DNA of 21,397 bases from a virus, in the IMG/VR virus record IMGVR_UViG_3300045999_003047, positions 1 to 21,397 of that record, one strand, 5' to 3'. A program made the translations under genes and the position numbers. This document shows, one piece after another, positions 6,160 to 21,397 of the stretch; within the stretch, counting starts at the first letter, position 1, and each line of letters begins with the position of its first letter. The notes below the pieces were generated by a model, which was not told the origin of the DNA, did no database searches, and was given only the letters and a program-made list of their open reading frames with translations.

Positions 6160-8475
6160 ATGGAAAAAAATATTAATCCAGAGATCAATAGATTAAATAT
6201 GGAGGCCTCTAGAAATGCCGCAGACTCTCTAAGAGAATGGGCTGGACTAGGGTCAGAAAAAAGACCTGTTGCATCTTCATTCCTAAACGGATCTACCGCT
6301 CAGATGTTAAAAGAATCGCAAATGACCGACCTATCAACAGGAGCAAAAAACAGTGTTTCTTTTAGTTTCGGACTTATTAATACCGTGTCAGCACTTAAAA
6401 ATAGTTCTTTAGCAGATCTTCCCGCAGGTAAAATCTTATTAGAAAAGTATGATCATTTGTTATTAAGCAGAGGAATTTCAGAAGCTTTTATATTTGAATC
6501 ATTTTTAGGAGATCTTCAACCTTTCTCTTGGGAAAACTCAGTATCTCCTGTCTTAGAATCTTTAAACAGAACTTTTGATAACAGAAGAAGAGAAATTGAA
6601 GTTCTTAAAACCTATGAGACAATGAAAAGTGCTCCAGGAAGAGAGCTTTTTTCTGATGCTACAGACCAGATGAAAAATTGGTTAGTTTCAGAAACTAAAT
6701 CGTCTGAAACATTAATCCACGGTCTTAAGAGATTTGGATTTAATCCAATGGTAAGAAACCTAGTTAGCTTTCTTTCAATTTACGAAAACGAAAACACAGG
6801 AAAATTCCACGTTGGTTTCGATAACGAAGTTTGTAAAGTGGAAAATCTTTATTCACCTATTCACGTAAATGAGAATGAAACAATATTCTACTCAGGAGGA
6901 AAATTCTTAAAATTAGATCAAAACAGTGGTTCTATTAAAGAATGTAACATGGATGAGGTTCCTGCAGAACTACAGGATCAAGCTAACATTATTGATGATA
7001 GAGACGTAAAAATAGACAACAATAGAATCTCATTAAATATTGGAAACAATAAGGTTGAAATCGTATTTACTAATGAATCTAAAGAGGTTTATTTTGACGG
7101 TAAAAGAATCAACGAGAGTGACTTGCCAGTTGCTGTTAGTGTAAGTACTAATAATTTATTAGGAGGATCAAATTCAAAAATATCTAGAGCAGTTTTCGTT
7201 GCTCAGAATGCTGATGATATTGTTGATATAGATTTTGGTAAAAAAATCAGATCTAAAATTTATGAAGGCGTAGAGGTAAACATATTTAAAACAGAGCACG
7301 CTATTTATGTTCAGACAGTTAATCCTTCAATGAGATTAAATAAAATTTACGAGGCAAACGCAACTCAAGCAATCTCAATAATTAAGGACTTTATTAAGTA
7401 CGATATTTCTGAATCATTAACCGAGTTTTTAGACGGAGAACAAGCATTCTTAAGCGTTATGAAAAACGATAAGAATGAGATAGTTAAGAACATAGATATT
7501 CTAGAAAGAGAATTAATAAAAATAGACGCCCTTAGAAAAGATAATCCTATTCTTGCAGATTCTCATGAGATCGTAACATTACAAGAAAGCATTGAGAATG
7601 AAATAGATAATCTTAAAGATAGATGGAACGAGATAAACGTTGAGATATCAAGATTTGAAGGTAGAGTTAAAGTGGTACCTTCTGTTAACGAAGATTTAGG
7701 ATATCCTATCGACACAGAGATTAGAATCAAAAGAAACGGAAATAAAGGAAGAGTTATTGGAGTTGATGGCAATTCTAAAACATATACCATTCTTTTTAAA
7801 GAGGGAAAAACTGGAGAATACTTTTTCTCTGACGTAGAAGATATCGACGATGAAGTAGATCGCTACGATATTAAAGCACCAGATCTTGATTTAGAGTACA
7901 CAAATGAATCTAATCAAAACTTCGCTAATGCACCAGGCACAAGAGGAGGTTCACACAAAGATTCTAGAATTGAGAGTCTATCTAAAAAGCACATGGCTCA
8001 AGCTCCTGATAAAAAGACTGGATCATCTCCTAAGTTTATTAACAACGAAAAAGGAACTATGTCTGGTCTACCTAAGAGCGGTAAATCTGCTCCTTTAACA
8101 GGAAGAGGTGTTAAATCTAAATCAGCTAACATGGCAGATCTTCCAAGCAAAGGTAAGGGGGGATCAGGAAAAAAATTCATTGACAATCTTGAAAATTTAG
8201 ATTTAGCTAAAGCGCCTAGCGCATCTCTAAAAGGATCTGCTAAGTTTATTCAAGACCTTAAGAATATGAATTTATCGCTTAAGGAGAGTCAAAAAAATTC
8301 ACACGTAGAAAAGGCTCCTAGCGGAAAGACTGAAAAGACTAAGAAGTTTATGGAGGACGAGGACGATTTTAATTTAGCAGGTCCTCACGGAAACAGTAAG
8401 AAAAATGGAAGAAGATTTGCAGAAAAAGATAAAGTAGCAAATCTTTCATCTGCTCCGAGAACAAAAAAAAAGTAA
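6160..8475 (+). CDS. Large protein with KOW/Tudor-like segment and repeated C-terminal motif tail
   Basis: This 771-residue protein's family is not recognised. The N-terminal 200 residues are helical. A region near 220-410 looks beta-rich (two strand sets around YFDGKRIN and IFKTEHAIYVQTVNP). A coiled coil spans about 434-500 (VKNIDILERELIKIDALRKD and later QESIENEIDNLKDRWNEI). Residues about 513-562 (DTEIRIKRNGNKGRVIGVDG, then YTILFKEGKTGEYFFSDVEDI) resemble a KOW or Tudor-like small barrel. From about 587 to the end the chain is Ser/Gly/Lys-rich and carries degenerate copies of K-F-I-x-[DN] followed 8-9 residues later by [NTD]-[ML]-[AS]-x-[AL]-P. The 64-nt gap before it holds an A-rich leader and a GATATATA string. 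Its position at the head of a late gene block suggests a structural or scaffold role. Confidence 0.75.
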   Translation: MEKNINPEINRLNMEASRNAADSLREWAGLGSEKRPVASSFLNGSTAQMLKESQMTDLSTGAKNSVSFSFGLINTVSALKNSSLADLPAGKILLEKYDHLLLSRGISEAFIFESFLGDLQPFSWENSVSPVLESLNRTFDNRRREIEVLKTYETMKSAPGRELFSDATDQMKNWLVSETKSSETLIHGLKRFGFNPMVRNLVSFLSIYENENTGKFHVGFDNEVCKVENLYSPIHVNENETIFYSGGKFLKLDQNSGSIKECNMDEVPAELQDQANIIDDRDVKIDNNRISLNIGNNKVEIVFTNESKEVYFDGKRINESDLPVAVSVSTNNLLGGSNSKISRAVFVAQNADDIVDIDFGKKIRSKIYEGVEVNIFKTEHAIYVQTVNPSMRLNKIYEANATQAISIIKDFIKYDISESLTEFLDGEQAFLSVMKNDKNEIVKNIDILERELIKIDALRKDNPILADSHEIVTLQESIENEIDNLKDRWNEINVEISRFEGRVKVVPSVNEDLGYPIDTEIRIKRNGNKGRVIGVDGNSKTYTILFKEGKTGEYFFSDVEDIDDEVDRYDIKAPDLDLEYTNESNQNFANAPGTRGGSHKDSRIESLSKKHMAQAPDKKTGSSPKFINNEKGTMSGLPKSGKSAPLTGRGVKSKSANMADLPSKGKGGSGKKFIDNLENLDLAKAPSASLKGSAKFIQDLKNMNLSLKESQKNSHVEKAPSGKTEKTKKFMEDEDDFNLAGPHGNSKKNGRRFAEKDKVANLSSAPRTKKK
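7918..8475 (+). repeat. Degenerate peptide repeat array in the 771-aa protein tail
   Basis: Five units pair a [KR]F[IMA] element with a [NTD][ML][AS]x[AL]P-like element 8-9 residues on: KFINNEKGTMSGLP, KFIDNLENLDLAKAP, KFIQDLKNMNLSLKE, KFMEDEDDFNLAGPH and RFAEKDKVANLSSAP, from nt 8032 onward. Half-units NFANAP, HMAQAP and NMADLP precede or interrupt them. Linkers are Gly/Ser/Lys-rich. The DNA copies are diverged, so the conservation is at the peptide level. Confidence 0.7.
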
Positions 8476-8541: not shown

Positions 8542-8723
8542 TTGTTTTAGACGATTTGAAAAATTGTTTAACAAAAATAAAAGAACTAGAAACTTCTAGT
8601 GAAGAAAACGGTAGAATAGGTATAGGGGTAATTAAGAATTCGAGGAAAAATTTGGAAGAATTAAAGATTGATTTAGAAAAGCAAATAGAAAAGCTCCAAA
8701 ATAATATTCCACAGCAAGAATGA
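8499..8723 (+). CDS. Small helical protein upstream of the late sigma factor
   Basis: This 74-residue, charged, predicted all-helical protein has a C-terminal coiled-coil stretch (NLEELKIDLEKQIEKLQNNI) that could mediate dimerisation. No family is recognised. It starts 23 nt after the 771-aa gene, with its ATG inside a strong stem-loop (8489-8541), and its stop overlaps the ATG of the gp55-like gene (ATGA), so the two are likely translationally coupled. The layout raises the possibility that it modulates or accompanies the sigma factor, but nothing in the protein itself shows this. Confidence 0.65.
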   Translation: MAKDPDEGVGNRLNFVLDDLKNCLTKIKELETSSEENGRIGIGVIKNSRKNLEELKIDLEKQIEKLQNNIPQQE

Positions 8724-9076
8724 TCTATGTAAAAAACAAAGAGCTAAAAAGAGCTCTTCTCGAAAGCAAAGAAAACGGACAACTAACCGACGAAACAGTA
8801 AAGATGTTTACTCTCATAGTAAACGGGATGTCTAAGACACATTCATATAGGGACAACGAAGATCGAGAAGACTGCATCTCATCCGGCCTAGAAGATCTAG
8901 TTAAATACTGGAACAGATATGATCCAGAAAAGTCTGATAATCCATTTGCCTTTATATCTCAAATAGCACATAACGGAATGAAGAAAGGCTGGAAGAAAAT
9001 TCATCCACCTAAATCTCCAAAAACTATTCCTTTTTCTAGAATAGTTAGAGAAGAGAATTCCAATTACAATGTATAA
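8720..9076 (+). CDS. 55: Late-transcription sigma factor, T4 gp55-like
   Basis: This 118-residue protein has a sigma-70 region 2-like core: YRDNEDREDCISSGLEDLVKYW, then RYDPEKSDNPFAFISQIAHNGMKKGWKK. This matches the T4 gp55 family pattern, in which a short factor with only a region 2 equivalent recognises the -10-like late promoter box (TATAAATA in T4) and depends on the sliding clamp and gp33 for activation. It lacks a region 4. It is shorter than T4 gp55 (185 residues). Its start overlaps the stop of the 74-aa gene by 4 nt, and it lies in the late/structural block, upstream of the gp4-like and portal genes. Assignment to the gp55 type rather than a general ECF fragment rests on the compact length, the motif and the context. 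Confidence 0.78.
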   Translation: MIYVKNKELKRALLESKENGQLTDETVKMFTLIVNGMSKTHSYRDNEDREDCISSGLEDLVKYWNRYDPEKSDNPFAFISQIAHNGMKKGWKKIHPPKSPKTIPFSRIVREENSNYNV

Positions 9077-9084
9077 CACCAATT

Positions 9085-9570
9085 GTGGATATAAAAAAAT
9101 TAAAACCCAATGGAAAGTGGAAATCTGGGAAATACACTCCAGTTAATCCAGGAAAATACATTGGAGATATCCACAATATAATCTATAGAAGCTCTTGGGA
9201 GAGGAAATTTTGTCAGTACTGTGACATAAATCCAAATATAACAAAATGGAGTTCAGAGCCAACTTCTATTCCTTATTGGAGTCCAATAGATAAGAAGGAA
9301 CACAAATATTTCGTAGATTACTACATACAGGTTCAAAAAGGCGAAGCTTTTGAAAATTGGTTAATCGAAATAAAACCAGAAGATCAATATGCCTTAAACA
9401 AAAGACCGAAAGAACCAGTAGGAAACCTGACAGAAAAAAAGATCAGAAGCTATAACGAAAAGCTTAAGATCTGGATTACTAATAGGGCTAAGTTTGAAGC
9501 AGCAACTAGATTTGCTGAATCTATGGGATATAAATTCGGAGCAATTAACGAAAGCTTTATAATGAGATGA
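9085..9570 (+). CDS. 4: Head completion nuclease, T4 gp4-like
   Basis: This 161-residue protein (T4 gp4 is about 150) has the head-completion family pattern: YTPVNPGKYIGD near the N-terminus, then IIYRSSWERKFCQYCDINPNI, KWSSEPTSIPY, KYFVDYYI and WLIEIKPEDQ. E (in SWERKF), D (in FVDYY) and E-x-K (in IEIKP) form a TnsA-like PD-(D/E)XK nuclease site. In T4, gp4 acts late in head assembly, before tail attachment. The start is GTG at 9085, eight nt after the previous stop; no ATG is available in that position. An 11-bp inverted repeat (9082-9092 / 9167-9177) covers this start. It overlaps the next gene by ATGA. Confidence 0.87.
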   Translation: MDIKKLKPNGKWKSGKYTPVNPGKYIGDIHNIIYRSSWERKFCQYCDINPNITKWSSEPTSIPYWSPIDKKEHKYFVDYYIQVQKGEAFENWLIEIKPEDQYALNKRPKEPVGNLTEKKIRSYNEKLKIWITNRAKFEAATRFAESMGYKFGAINESFIMR

Positions 9571-10163
9571 TTACTCCATTTAAACAACAATTTGACGACT
9601 ATAGATCGTCAGTATCTGGCCTTACATCACTACAAGAAGAGTCCTTCATGTTTTGGTTTAAAAATTTCGTCAATAAAAACTCTCAATTCAATCCACTAAA
9701 TTTCTTACAAGGGAAGGTTTATTCTTTTGAATACAATGATAAGTTAGAAAAGGGAAAGAAGTTTATAAACAGAAGACCTGTTGTTTTCTTTACTGGGTAT
9801 GACAACTACGAGAAAAAAAATCTATTCAATGGTCTGGATCTTGTTTTAATTCCCCCAATTTTTAGATTGTACTTTTTCGAAAGAGTACAAAATGTTTTTC
9901 ACGACCAAATAGAAAGAAATATACGTAAGGCTGAAAACGGGGAGGGAAGGGATCAATCGCCACTCAGAACTGAGTATCAAATAATGGAAAATATACTAAA
10001 AGGAATACCATATAAGCACTCCTATAGATCCTGGGATTTAAAAAAAGTTAGAGATGTTATGGAAATTCCTTTCGAAGATTGGACTAGAATAGTATATCTT
10101 GATACTAAGTCAATTGAAGGGACCCAGCTTATTGAGATATATAATAAAAATTCACAAGTCTAA
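9567..10163 (+). CDS. Unknown 198-aa protein between gp4-like and portal genes
   Basis: This 198-residue soluble protein is mixed alpha/beta. A strand-rich block GKVYSFEYNDKLEKGKKFINRRPVVFFTGYD is followed by NLFNGLDLVLIPPIFRLYFFERVQ. The pattern 'K-x-Y-x-F-x-Y ... R-x-P-x-V-x-F ... G-x-[DN]-L-x-x-[IL]-P-P' resembles, from memory, a family of unassigned small proteins found in several T4-type phages. In T4 the gene after gp4 is the baseplate wedge gene 53, of nearly the same length (196 residues), but I do not see gp53 sequence features here. It is linked on both sides by ATGA and TAATG overlaps, so it is expressed with head genes. Confidence 0.75.
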   Translation: MITPFKQQFDDYRSSVSGLTSLQEESFMFWFKNFVNKNSQFNPLNFLQGKVYSFEYNDKLEKGKKFINRRPVVFFTGYDNYEKKNLFNGLDLVLIPPIFRLYFFERVQNVFHDQIERNIRKAENGEGRDQSPLRTEYQIMENILKGIPYKHSYRSWDLKKVRDVMEIPFEDWTRIVYLDTKSIEGTQLIEIYNKNSQV

Positions 10164-11812
10164 TGGCTGGATTAACAGACGAAAAAAAATCTTTCTTCAG
10201 CTCTATTATAGAGAACATAAAGAAAGTGGGCAGTTTCGGAATGGCCTACGAAGACTTAGTTGTTAAGAATTCACAAGCAGTAGGTATATCGGAGGCACAA
10301 TTCCTACAAAAAGGTGGTATTAAGGATGAGGCTTTCTTGTTTGGTTTAAGGAGAGCAGATACAACAACTAAACAGTACATAGCATATTTTGATAAGGACT
10401 ACAAAAATAAAAGACACTATCTACAGGGATTTGCACAAAACCCCGAGATAGAATTTATTCTTGACACTATATGTGACGAAGCTATTGTTTACGACGAAAA
10501 GAACTTCTGGGGATATTTCTCCTTTATGCAGCACGATGATGTCGATGACGAAACATACGAGAAGGTTCAGAAAAGATATAAAGAAATATACAATCTATTT
10601 GGGTTTAATCAGGATATAGCCGCCTGGCATTTATTTAGAAAATTTCTTGTCGACGGTATAATAGCTTTCGAAATAGTATTCGATAAAAAAGGAAAAAACA
10701 TAGTTGGCTTTAAAGAATTAGATCCTTGGTCTTTAATCCCCACAGTAGAGGCACAGCCTGATGGATCTTTTACTGACATATGGATTCAGTACCCAGATAA
10801 CCCAGCACTTACCAGAAAACTATACGATTCACAAATAATTTATATAAGTTACGCCAAAGGAGGAGGTACTTCTTCCCGTGTTAGTTATTGTGAAAGAATG
10901 ATCAGATCATTTAATCTACTTCGTATAATGGAACATACTAGGATTATATGGAACGTAATGAACTCTTCTTACAGGATGGCTATGACGGTTCCTATTGGTA
11001 CTAGATCTCCACAAAAAGCAAAACAAACGCTAGGAGAACTTATGTCCATATACAAAGAGGATATAAGATTAGATACAGATAGCGGAGAATTAAGTATAGA
11101 CGGGAGACCTAAAATACAATTCTTTAAAAACTATTTAATGCCTTCGTCACCTAATGGAACCCCAGATATACAACCTTTACCTGGAGGAGGAGATGCAACG
11201 GCTTTCTCAGATACCACAGTTCTTAAATACTTTGCGAATAAGCTAAGAATGGATTCTAAAATTCCAGCGACTAGATTTGGTAGAGAAGAATCTGGATCAG
11301 AGGGAACTATTACTTTTACTGCAGAAGGATTAGACCAAGAAGAAATAAGATTTGCTAAATTTGTAAATAGATTACGATCAATATATCAGGAAATCCTAAT
11401 GAAGCCCCTTTGGGTTCAATTCTGCTTAGACTTCCCTGCTCTTAAGAAAGACTATATAATTAAATCCGAATTTGGATTAGATTACGTCAAGGAAAACATA
11501 TTTAGAGAAGCCAAAGAAATGGAGGTCTTAATGGCAAGGAAAGACCAGGTAATTAAAATTTCTGCTCTTATGAACTCCGCCGGTACCAAGTATTTTAATA
11601 TGGATTTCTTGGTAGATAGATATTTGGGTGTAAAGGGGCAGGACATAATAGGCAACAAAAAAGCTAAGGAAAAAGCTGCCGAGGAAAAAAAGAAAGCTGA
11701 AGAGGCAGGTGCAACTGGTGCAGAGGCAGGTGCAGAGGCAGGTGCAGAGGCAGGTGCAGAGGCAGGTGCCGAAGGTGGTGCAGAGGCAGGAGGAGACATG
11801 GGGACAATTTAA
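10163..11812 (+). CDS. 20: Portal vertex protein, T4 gp20-like (copy 1)
   Basis: This 549-residue protein compares with 524 in T4 gp20. The dodecameric portal forms the DNA-entry vertex, nucleates head assembly and docks the terminase and then the tail. Family features include the N-terminal SFGMAYEDLV, DTICDEAIVYDEKNFW at about residues 101-116, a wing region with GFKELDPWSLIP, the conserved RSFNLLRIMEHTRIIWNVMNSSYRM, then PQKAKQTLGELMSIYKEDI, and YLMPSSPNG...LPGGGDAT, which precedes the crown/clip-region KYFANKLRMDSKIPATRF. The C-terminal 43 residues are a Lys/Glu then Ala/Gly/Glu low-complexity tail ending in GGDMGTI. Start ATG overlaps the upstream stop (TAATG). A second complete portal gene follows after 11 nt. 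Confidence 0.92.
   Translation: MAGLTDEKKSFFSSIIENIKKVGSFGMAYEDLVVKNSQAVGISEAQFLQKGGIKDEAFLFGLRRADTTTKQYIAYFDKDYKNKRHYLQGFAQNPEIEFILDTICDEAIVYDEKNFWGYFSFMQHDDVDDETYEKVQKRYKEIYNLFGFNQDIAAWHLFRKFLVDGIIAFEIVFDKKGKNIVGFKELDPWSLIPTVEAQPDGSFTDIWIQYPDNPALTRKLYDSQIIYISYAKGGGTSSRVSYCERMIRSFNLLRIMEHTRIIWNVMNSSYRMAMTVPIGTRSPQKAKQTLGELMSIYKEDIRLDTDSGELSIDGRPKIQFFKNYLMPSSPNGTPDIQPLPGGGDATAFSDTTVLKYFANKLRMDSKIPATRFGREESGSEGTITFTAEGLDQEEIRFAKFVNRLRSIYQEILMKPLWVQFCLDFPALKKDYIIKSEFGLDYVKENIFREAKEMEVLMARKDQVIKISALMNSAGTKYFNMDFLVDRYLGVKGQDIIGNKKAKEKAAEEKKKAEEAGATGAEAGAEAGAEAGAEAGAEGGAEAGGDMGTI
11702..11785 (+). repeat. Ala-Gly-Glu coding repeat in portal copy 1 tail
   Basis: Tandem 12-nt units GCAGGTGCAGAG encode (Ala-Gly-Ala-Glu)n, with four nearly perfect copies in a row. 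The units use GGT and GAG codons, unlike the matching tail of portal copy 2. Such repeats change copy number by replication slippage. Confidence 0.85.
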
Positions 11813-11823
11813 TAAAATAGAAG

Positions 11824-13482
11824 ATGGCAGGATTTTTAGATAATTTAGGAAAGATCAATCCGAATATCTCTAGGATATTAAAAACGATCAGTGGACTAGG
11901 TTCCTTCGGAATGGAATATAAAGATATGGTCATAGAAGACTCTATGGCGATAGGAGCTTCCGAAGCCGCTATGAGAGAAAGATTTGGTTTTACTGAATCT
12001 GATGAGGATTTTATTTATAGTATAGCTGCACAAGATACTTCTAACAGAAAATACATAGCATATTTTGATAAGGACTACCCAGTTAAAAGAGATTTTCTTA
12101 GAACTTTTGCTCTTAATGCAGAAATAGAATACATTCTAGATACGATATGCGATGAGGCTATAGTATATGATGAAAAAAACTTTTTCTGTCACCCAGCTTT
12201 AATAAATATGGATTTGAAAGATGACGTTATAAAATCCATGAGAGCTAATTTCAGGAAGTTATACGTTCTTCACAATTTTGCAAACGGACTAACGGGTTGG
12301 CAATACTTTAGGCAATTAGTCGTAGAAGGATTTTTAGCTTTTGAGATAATTTATTCCAATGACGGTAAAGAGATAGTAGGATTTAAAGAATTAGATGCTG
12401 TAAGTTTAACTCCCGCTATAGAAAAGAAACCTGATGGAACAAGAGAAACTATCTGGTGGCAGTACTACGGAGAAACAACTAGACAAAGAAAACTTCTGGA
12501 TGCACAAATTATTTATATCTCATACGCTAAAGCCAACGTGGTTTCTAGAGTTTCGTATACAGAAAGATTGATAAGATCTTATAACTTATTAAAGATAATG
12601 GAGCATTCTAGAATTATATGGAACGTTATGAATGCCCAGTATAGAATTAAAATGACAGTTCCTATTGGTAGCAAAGCTCCTCAAAAGGCAAAAGAAACAC
12701 TGGGAGAGTTAATGTCTGTATACAAGGAGGATATAAAGCTAGATACATCATCGGGTGAATTAGCAATCAATGGTAGACCTGATCTCCAATTCTATAAAAA
12801 TTATTTATTTCCTCAACAGGGTGGAGAATCAGTAAAAATAGAAACTCTAAATGCACAAGGACCAAATCTTAATATAATGGATTCGGTGGTTTATTTCTAT
12901 AACAAATTAAGACAGGATTCTAAAATACCTTACAATAGATTCTCATCACGATTTGGTGTGGGTTCTAACAACGTTTTTAAAACTGGAGCAGATGGTGCAG
13001 AGAGAGACGAAATTAGATTTGCTAAATTTATAACTAGACTTAGATCCATATTCCAAGAGATAATGGTAAAGCCTTTATGGATACAAATGTGTTTAGAATT
13101 TCCTGAACTAAAAAATGACTCGGAATTTAGGAGTCAAATTGGTGTCAAATTCGAAAGTGACAACATGTTTGGCGAATCTAGAGAAATTGAACAGCTAATC
13201 AAAAGGATCGATTTCATAACAGCAATGGGAGAAATAAAAGAAACAGTAAAAGAAGAAGAGGTACAATATTTCGACCAAGATTTTATGATTGAAAGATGGC
13301 TAGATTTGTCATATGAAGATATACAGCTAAACAAATCTTACGTTAAAAAAGCGGAAGAGGAAGCCAAAGCTGGAGCAACTGGAGCAGAAGCTGGAGCAAC
13401 TGGAGCAGAAGCTGGAGCAGAAGCTGGAGCAACCGGAGCAGAAGGTGAAGCAGAGGCTGGAGGAGACATGGGGACAATTTAA
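11824..13482 (+). CDS. 20: Portal vertex protein, T4 gp20-like (copy 2)
   Basis: This 552-residue full-length paralog of the preceding portal gene matches it along the whole length. Paired segments include SFGMEYKDMV, YIAYFDKDYP, DTICDEAIVYDEKNFF, RSYNLLKIMEHSRIIWNVMNAQYRI, PQKAKETLGELMSVYKEDI and FAKFITRLRSIFQEIMVKPLWIQMCLEFP. Divergence is greatest in the wing (FCHPALINMDLKDD) and near the clip (PQQGGESVKIETLN). No stop, frameshift or lost core motif is visible, so both copies look functional. The C-terminal tail is again Ala/Gly/Glu/Thr-rich and ends in the same GGDMGTI. Two intact portals could form mixed rings, serve different assembly steps, or be a recent specialisation; the sequence does not decide. 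Confidence 0.9.
   Translation: MAGFLDNLGKINPNISRILKTISGLGSFGMEYKDMVIEDSMAIGASEAAMRERFGFTESDEDFIYSIAAQDTSNRKYIAYFDKDYPVKRDFLRTFALNAEIEYILDTICDEAIVYDEKNFFCHPALINMDLKDDVIKSMRANFRKLYVLHNFANGLTGWQYFRQLVVEGFLAFEIIYSNDGKEIVGFKELDAVSLTPAIEKKPDGTRETIWWQYYGETTRQRKLLDAQIIYISYAKANVVSRVSYTERLIRSYNLLKIMEHSRIIWNVMNAQYRIKMTVPIGSKAPQKAKETLGELMSVYKEDIKLDTSSGELAINGRPDLQFYKNYLFPQQGGESVKIETLNAQGPNLNIMDSVVYFYNKLRQDSKIPYNRFSSRFGVGSNNVFKTGADGAERDEIRFAKFITRLRSIFQEIMVKPLWIQMCLEFPELKNDSEFRSQIGVKFESDNMFGESREIEQLIKRIDFITAMGEIKETVKEEEVQYFDQDFMIERWLDLSYEDIQLNKSYVKKAEEEAKAGATGAEAGATGAEAGAEAGATGAEGEAEAGGDMGTI
13369..13455 (+). repeat. Ala-Gly-Thr/Glu coding repeat in portal copy 2 tail
   Basis: Repeats of the form GCTGGAGCAACTGGAGCAGAA encode Ala-Gly-Ala-Thr-Gly-Ala-Glu. 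The codons (GGA, GAA, GCT) differ from those in copy 1, so the arrays were built separately by slippage rather than copied whole. Confidence 0.8.

Positions 13483-18574: not shown

Positions 18575-21397
<2,823 letters not shown>

Follow-up and report, generated by a model that had tools for sequence, protein, structure and literature searches.

The recruitment of many proteins into the large heads of huge phages is poorly known. The closest described system is the prohead core of phage T4 (gp22, gp67, gp68 and the internal proteins) where gp21 degrades the proteins of the core and where internal proteins are loaded by means of a targeting sequence (PMC9958956). The protease of SPN3US cleaves after A-X-E, S being preferred at P1′ (PMC10052503).

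The window analyzed here is a 21,397-nt (21.4-kb) piece of a large T4-related phage genome, whose lineage may be like that of the freshwater moraphages treated in PMC12619734, and it encodes a 771-aa protein which, judging from its gene neighborhood, is an uncharacterized head-module protein conserved in huge T4-related phages. It is like the T4 prohead-core proteins in its gene neighborhood (gp2, gp4, gp20, protease and capsid protein), in its candidate [L/I]-x-E protease sites and in the order of events proposed for it, prohead loading and then cutting. It differs from them in that no sequence relation was found and in that its core is without a full-length match among solved structures, and whereas the T4 internal proteins carry one short N-terminal tag, the tag proposed for the 771-aa protein is C-terminal, disordered and many-copy. 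Our preferred reading, to which we give a probability of about 40%, is that this protein is loaded into the prohead core by a multivalent docking tail, which is afterward cleaved by the prohead protease. The repeat tail is conserved across the lineage, on a widespread unnamed head-module protein, and hence provides a concrete peptide for testing.

The head-module gene and its predicted core

No PHROG or Pfam family matched the 771-aa protein at E 0.1 and one genome scan found no relatives in bacterial genomes, while 21 distinct full-length homologs make up its alignment. The gene stands in a conserved order, 771-gp55-gp4-gp2-gp20 (Table 1), lying upstream in every locus with room, and in the testable loci the downstream neighbors are the gp55-like sigma factor (72/72), gp4 (72/72), gp2 (69/69) and gp20 (53/53). 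The window contains neither the prohead protease gene nor gp23; among 13 records, the protease is found in eight and gp23 in nine, the misses being fragments, and in LR756500 the gp55-gp4-gp2-gp20 run extends into the prohead protease and the capsid protein.

Portal-like genes are in tandem in the window (10163-11812 and 11824-13482) and apparently also in contig G001, with LR756500 showing one; the Pfam comparison covers the first of the two (10163-11812). Each of the two encoded proteins has a low-complexity Gly/Ala/Glu tail at its C-terminus (11680-11812 and 13370-13482). Farther along, positions 19250-21270 are GC-rich, with collagen-like Gly-Pro repeats that show up as long Pro/Val ORFs when the other strand is read, and likely encode a fiber protein.

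The full-length AlphaFold model of the 771-aa protein is poor (pLDDT 56.8), with values below 50 at residues 564-694 and 712-771 and one helix, residues 693-715, over unit 3 of the tail. The core, modeled on its own with 30 sequences, is predicted to comprise helices, a beta domain, a long coiled coil and a KOW/Tudor-like domain. The last of these, residues 513-567, has a KOW/Tudor match with Z 8.6-9.6 (about 9.5 over 53 residues), and by structure comparison the coiled-coil hairpin also matches Gfh1. The likeness to KOW/Tudor domains (NusG, Spt5, PHF1) is one of fold in the model; it concerns only a small domain of the 771-aa protein, and no function follows from it. No full-length PDB match to the core was listed, which does not establish a new fold. 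Unnamed phage proteins of 414-531 aa share the predicted fold; among them, A0A5S9HXP5 of the Tenacibaculum phage PTm1 matches it with an E value of 4.5e-15.

Table 1. Features of the 771-aa protein and of the genes downstream of it (positions in the window; a slash marks the predicted cut; bits are scores in the divergent-clade matrix).
Feature	Residues	Position	Strand	Evidence or remark
771-aa head-module protein (core + repeat tail)	1-771	6160..8475	+	ORF; homologs aligned; synteny
Predicted folded core	54-567	6319..7860	+	AlphaFold2 pLDDT 81, pTM 0.65
Possible protease site T-N-E/S, core/tail junction	581-584	7900..7911	+	weaker than E709 site
Lys-rich, mostly disordered repeat tail	585-771	7912..8472	+	pLDDT; charge
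Partial unit NQNFANAP	585-592	7912..7935	+	
Partial unit SRIESLSKKHMAQAP	602-616	7963..8007	+	
Unit 1 KFINNEKGTMSGLP	625-638	8032..8073	+	one residue shorter; score -8.0
Partial unit SANMADLP	655-662	8122..8145	+	
Unit 2 KFIDNLENLDLAKAP	672-686	8173..8217	+	24.4 bits
Unit 3 KFIQDLKNMNLSLKE	695-709	8242..8286	+	27.3 bits; inside predicted helix 693-715
Predicted prohead-protease site L-K-E/S, cut after E709	707-710	8278..8289	+	conservation; capsid likeness
Partial unit NSHVEKAP	713-720	8296..8319	+	
Unit 4 KFMEDEDDFNLAGPH	729-743	8344..8388	+	12.1 bits
Unit 5 RFAEKDKVANLSSAP	752-766	8413..8457	+	6.8 bits
gp55-like late sigma factor		8720..9076	+	phrog_234 E 2.7e-16
gp4-like head closure + gp2-like DNA end protector		9085..10163	+	phrog_218 E 5.6e-45, phrog_429 E 6.9e-11
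gp20-like portal protein		10163..11812	+	PF07230 E 1e-60

Repeat units in the tail

Between residues 585 and 766 the tail is taken up by five F-starting units and four partial cores, with a unit consensus of approximately K-F-I-E-D-L-K-N-x-N-L-A-x-A-P. An earlier note on this DNA had described five copies of a motif with loose spacing in the tail, and all five were located, together with the four partial cores (Table 1) that its reader had missed. Three of the five units carry exactly the final P that it assigned to the motif, while the 695 unit ends in SLKE and the 729 unit in AGPH. The note had also remarked that the DNA of the units is diverged while the pattern persists, which agrees with the presence of just two two-copy 16-nt repeats and no tandem array; a DNA-level tandem repeat was rejected, as none was found. 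No mention of the motif was found in the literature that our searches covered, and comparison of the tail with solved structures by sequence gave a single match (E 0.6), taken as chance.

The pattern survives a shuffled-sequence test of composition. Two patterns, both composed after inspection of the tail, were scored against 20,000 shuffled tails: F[IVMA]x[DNEK]x(2-6)[LMF][AS]x[ALSKGP] was observed five times (shuffled mean 0.026, maximum 2, 0/20,000 reaching 5) and [NDTSHKGAQ][LMF][ASGEV]x[ALT]P six times (shuffled mean 0.066, 0/20,000 reaching 6). A position matrix was derived from 38 units of a divergent clade (36-44% identity); by this matrix three window units score 8 bits or above versus 0.0017 per shuffle (0/3,000), and units 1 and 5 fall under the 8-bit line. 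Chance or composition as the source of the repeats was rejected by these tests.

Scans of viral contigs yielded 49 loci at first and 74 later, the later set adding 32 to the earlier one (L103-L134). Units are present in all 48 distinct tails longer than 150 aa, with three to six in each at a score of at least 8 bits; 17 of these tails, in or near the clade used to train the matrix, have three to six units, and the other 31 have three to five. Spacing from one unit to the next is exactly 23 residues in 82 of 162 consecutive pairs, this being the commonest value, and most others are 32-36 and 46-47. When the unit matrix was applied at 11 bits to 424,482 aa of stop-to-stop ORFs, it found the 771-aa homologs and one other ORF, of 124 aa in L095, where the match (16.5 bits, one copy) was taken as chance; a signal common to several virion proteins was rejected, as beyond the 771-aa homologs this ORF alone matched. 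The scanned contigs are fragments, so further unit-bearing proteins may have gone unseen.

Selection on the tail was estimated from all pairs of 16 sequences, among which pS is near saturation in all regions (0.58-0.64). The pN/pS ratio is 0.23 in the core, 0.29 in the units and 0.40 in the linkers, and the units are thus only somewhat more constrained than the linkers. Among the seven relatives closest to the window, pN is 0.039-0.065 in the units versus 0.075-0.135 in the core, with pS of about 0.6, and in more distant relatives, from L016 onward, the tail changes faster than the core. From these figures the tail is constrained, yet diverging between sublineages. The AlphaFold model, the shuffles and the homologous tails together describe many conserved motif copies within predicted disorder, and the repeat tail is real, multi-copy and under strong selection.

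Relatives of the core without the repeat tail

The core occurs without the repeat tail in LR756500, LR756504, LR756501 and LR745206, three of which are 630-735-kb phages, and in all four it has the same gene place as the 771-aa protein. In LR756504, LR756501 (735 kb) and LR745206, where neighbors were judged by eye, a tailless 428-435-aa protein occupies that place, while Lak has the core with an 804-aa acidic insert (263 D/E, 64 K/R) and, again judged by eye, a C-terminal KOW-like part. No repeat units were found in these five relatives, the four LR proteins being checked whole and Lak over its acidic segment.

Assignment to the same core is by profile, tblastn or predicted fold, depending on the protein. 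LR756504 matches the 771-aa family by profile (E 1.5e-7), and LR756504, LR756501 and LR745206 are related to one another by tblastn. Profile A3 gave no match to PTm1, PAU, LR756501 or LR745206; LR756501 and LR745206, which were picked out by gene place and by tblastn to LR756504, are tied to the family through the profile match of LR756504, and PTm1 is linked only by predicted fold.

Because these farther relatives have the core without such a tail, the tail is an addition in one lineage and is dispensable for the basic role of the core. Homologs with unrelated tails, which the earlier note had named as counting against its motif, thus exist outside the lineage and not inside it. The core family, with members in Lak, the 735-kb phages and Tenacibaculum phages, merits a name and a function.

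Candidate protease sites and a proposed role of the tail

L-x-E-S at the tail site is kept in 43 of 46 rows, and a relaxed form with Q and N in 46 of 48. For the junction site, 40 of the 48 distinct tails have a loose [NFT]E[SGA] somewhere in their first 45 residues. Capsid proteins have H-S-L-N-E-S-A-G after about 45 residues (the four readable of eight, with LR756500 and Lak read twice and L151/L152 once), and by analogy with T4 their L-N-E-S is expected to be the maturation site; the corresponding capsid sites are L-Y-E-N in LR756500, I-H-E-N in LR756504 and I-N-E-N in both LR745206 and PTm1. In sequence, the tail L-x-E-S resembles this predicted capsid-protein cleavage site.

In the 771-aa family eight [LIVM]xE[SAGN] columns are kept in at least 85% of rows, and in 15 neighboring families (4,236 aa) two are. 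This excess is suggestive only, because seven of the eight columns are in the folded core, one of them reading ILER in the window, and the core columns may simply be structural. Shuffling gives an expectation of 3.8 such sites for the core, where 11 are present (3/5,000), and of 0.55 for the tail alone, which has 1 and is not enriched. In addition, most members of the near clade, but not L042, have [LIM]-x-E-S around residues 50-53; the residues up to this site exceed the length of the T4 targeting sequence.

The prohead protease of these phages is fused to a long scaffold-like part of 14-residue repeats (YSEYLAENLDKNIS), as read in L071 (G001 167131-169176), L157, L170, L171 and L086, and a PTm1 protein is likewise annotated as a scaffold-protease fusion. 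Since most of the 14-residue repeats contain L-A-E-N, which could be a cleavage site, cutting may reduce the scaffold to short peptides. A unit that mimics this scaffold repeat was considered and dropped, the best register scoring 5.2 with 223 of 2,000 column shuffles as good.

In the mechanism that we propose, the 771-aa protein would be a component of the prohead core or an internal protein of the head in huge T4-related phages, and an aquatic lineage would have extended its core by a Lys-rich, disordered tail in which short docking motifs are repeated. The units would most likely become short helices on binding a repeated prohead partner, either the scaffold or the inner capsid surface, and several weak unit contacts would keep the protein in place in the head as it grows. 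Thereafter the prohead protease would cut the tail, chiefly after E709 and perhaps after E583, which would release the 771-aa protein or clear the tail. That the repeats are docking motifs, as the earlier note had suggested, fits their position in a disordered, conserved tail of a head-module protein, but the similarity of unit and scaffold is not significant. Of the partners that it had named (capsid, scaffold or polymerase), one in the head is likelier, the polymerase having just the KOW-like domain and the neighboring sigma gene in its favor. It is possible, if rather unlikely, that the tail is a new type of head-loading tag, a C-terminal multivalent repeat by whose avidity the protein would be zipped onto the prohead lattice before the protease destroys the repeat; T4, by contrast, uses a single N-terminal targeting sequence.

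Docking followed by cutting has to be weighed against a conserved but partnerless tether, either a spacer or a Lys-rich filler that packs or neutralizes head DNA, with its pattern originating from an ancestral segment of 23 residues that was duplicated. Such a tether, which we consider doubtful, would explain the net charge of +20 over residues 584-771 in the window (39 K/R, 19 D/E), the predicted disorder, the 23-residue spacing of the units and the different filler, or none, in other lineages. However, the pattern of the units has been kept although synonymous sites have reached saturation, the units are more constrained than the linkers and the net charge of homologous tails ranges from +27 to -4, hence charge is not the conserved property.

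It is improbable that the partner docked by the units instead belongs to transcription or replication (RNA polymerase, the sliding clamp or the gp55-like sigma) and that the protein acts in late transcription. The gene is directly upstream of the gp55-like sigma gene in every testable locus, and the core has a NusG/Spt5-like KOW fold and a coiled-coil hairpin also matching Gfh1, yet its other neighbors are head genes, and KOW/Tudor domains and coiled coils are common folds. Very little probability is given to a reading in which each unit is an unusual substrate, recognized and cut by the prohead protease, and not a docking motif. In its favor, N-L-A-E-A-P occurs in some homologous units and resembles [L]-x-E/A, and it is similar to the L-A-E-N of the scaffold repeats. 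Against it, none of the units in the window has E at that place, and in the near clade the residue at x is free to vary (N, Q, D, K, S).

Several Lak proteins begin with a common sequence, M..IK.L[IML]-E-S-L-F-D-D, at about residue 10 (L173 and L174; MK250019.1 524037-525200, 105455-106153 and 113970-115355; Lak-A2, code 15), and this start is like a capsid targeting or processing sequence.
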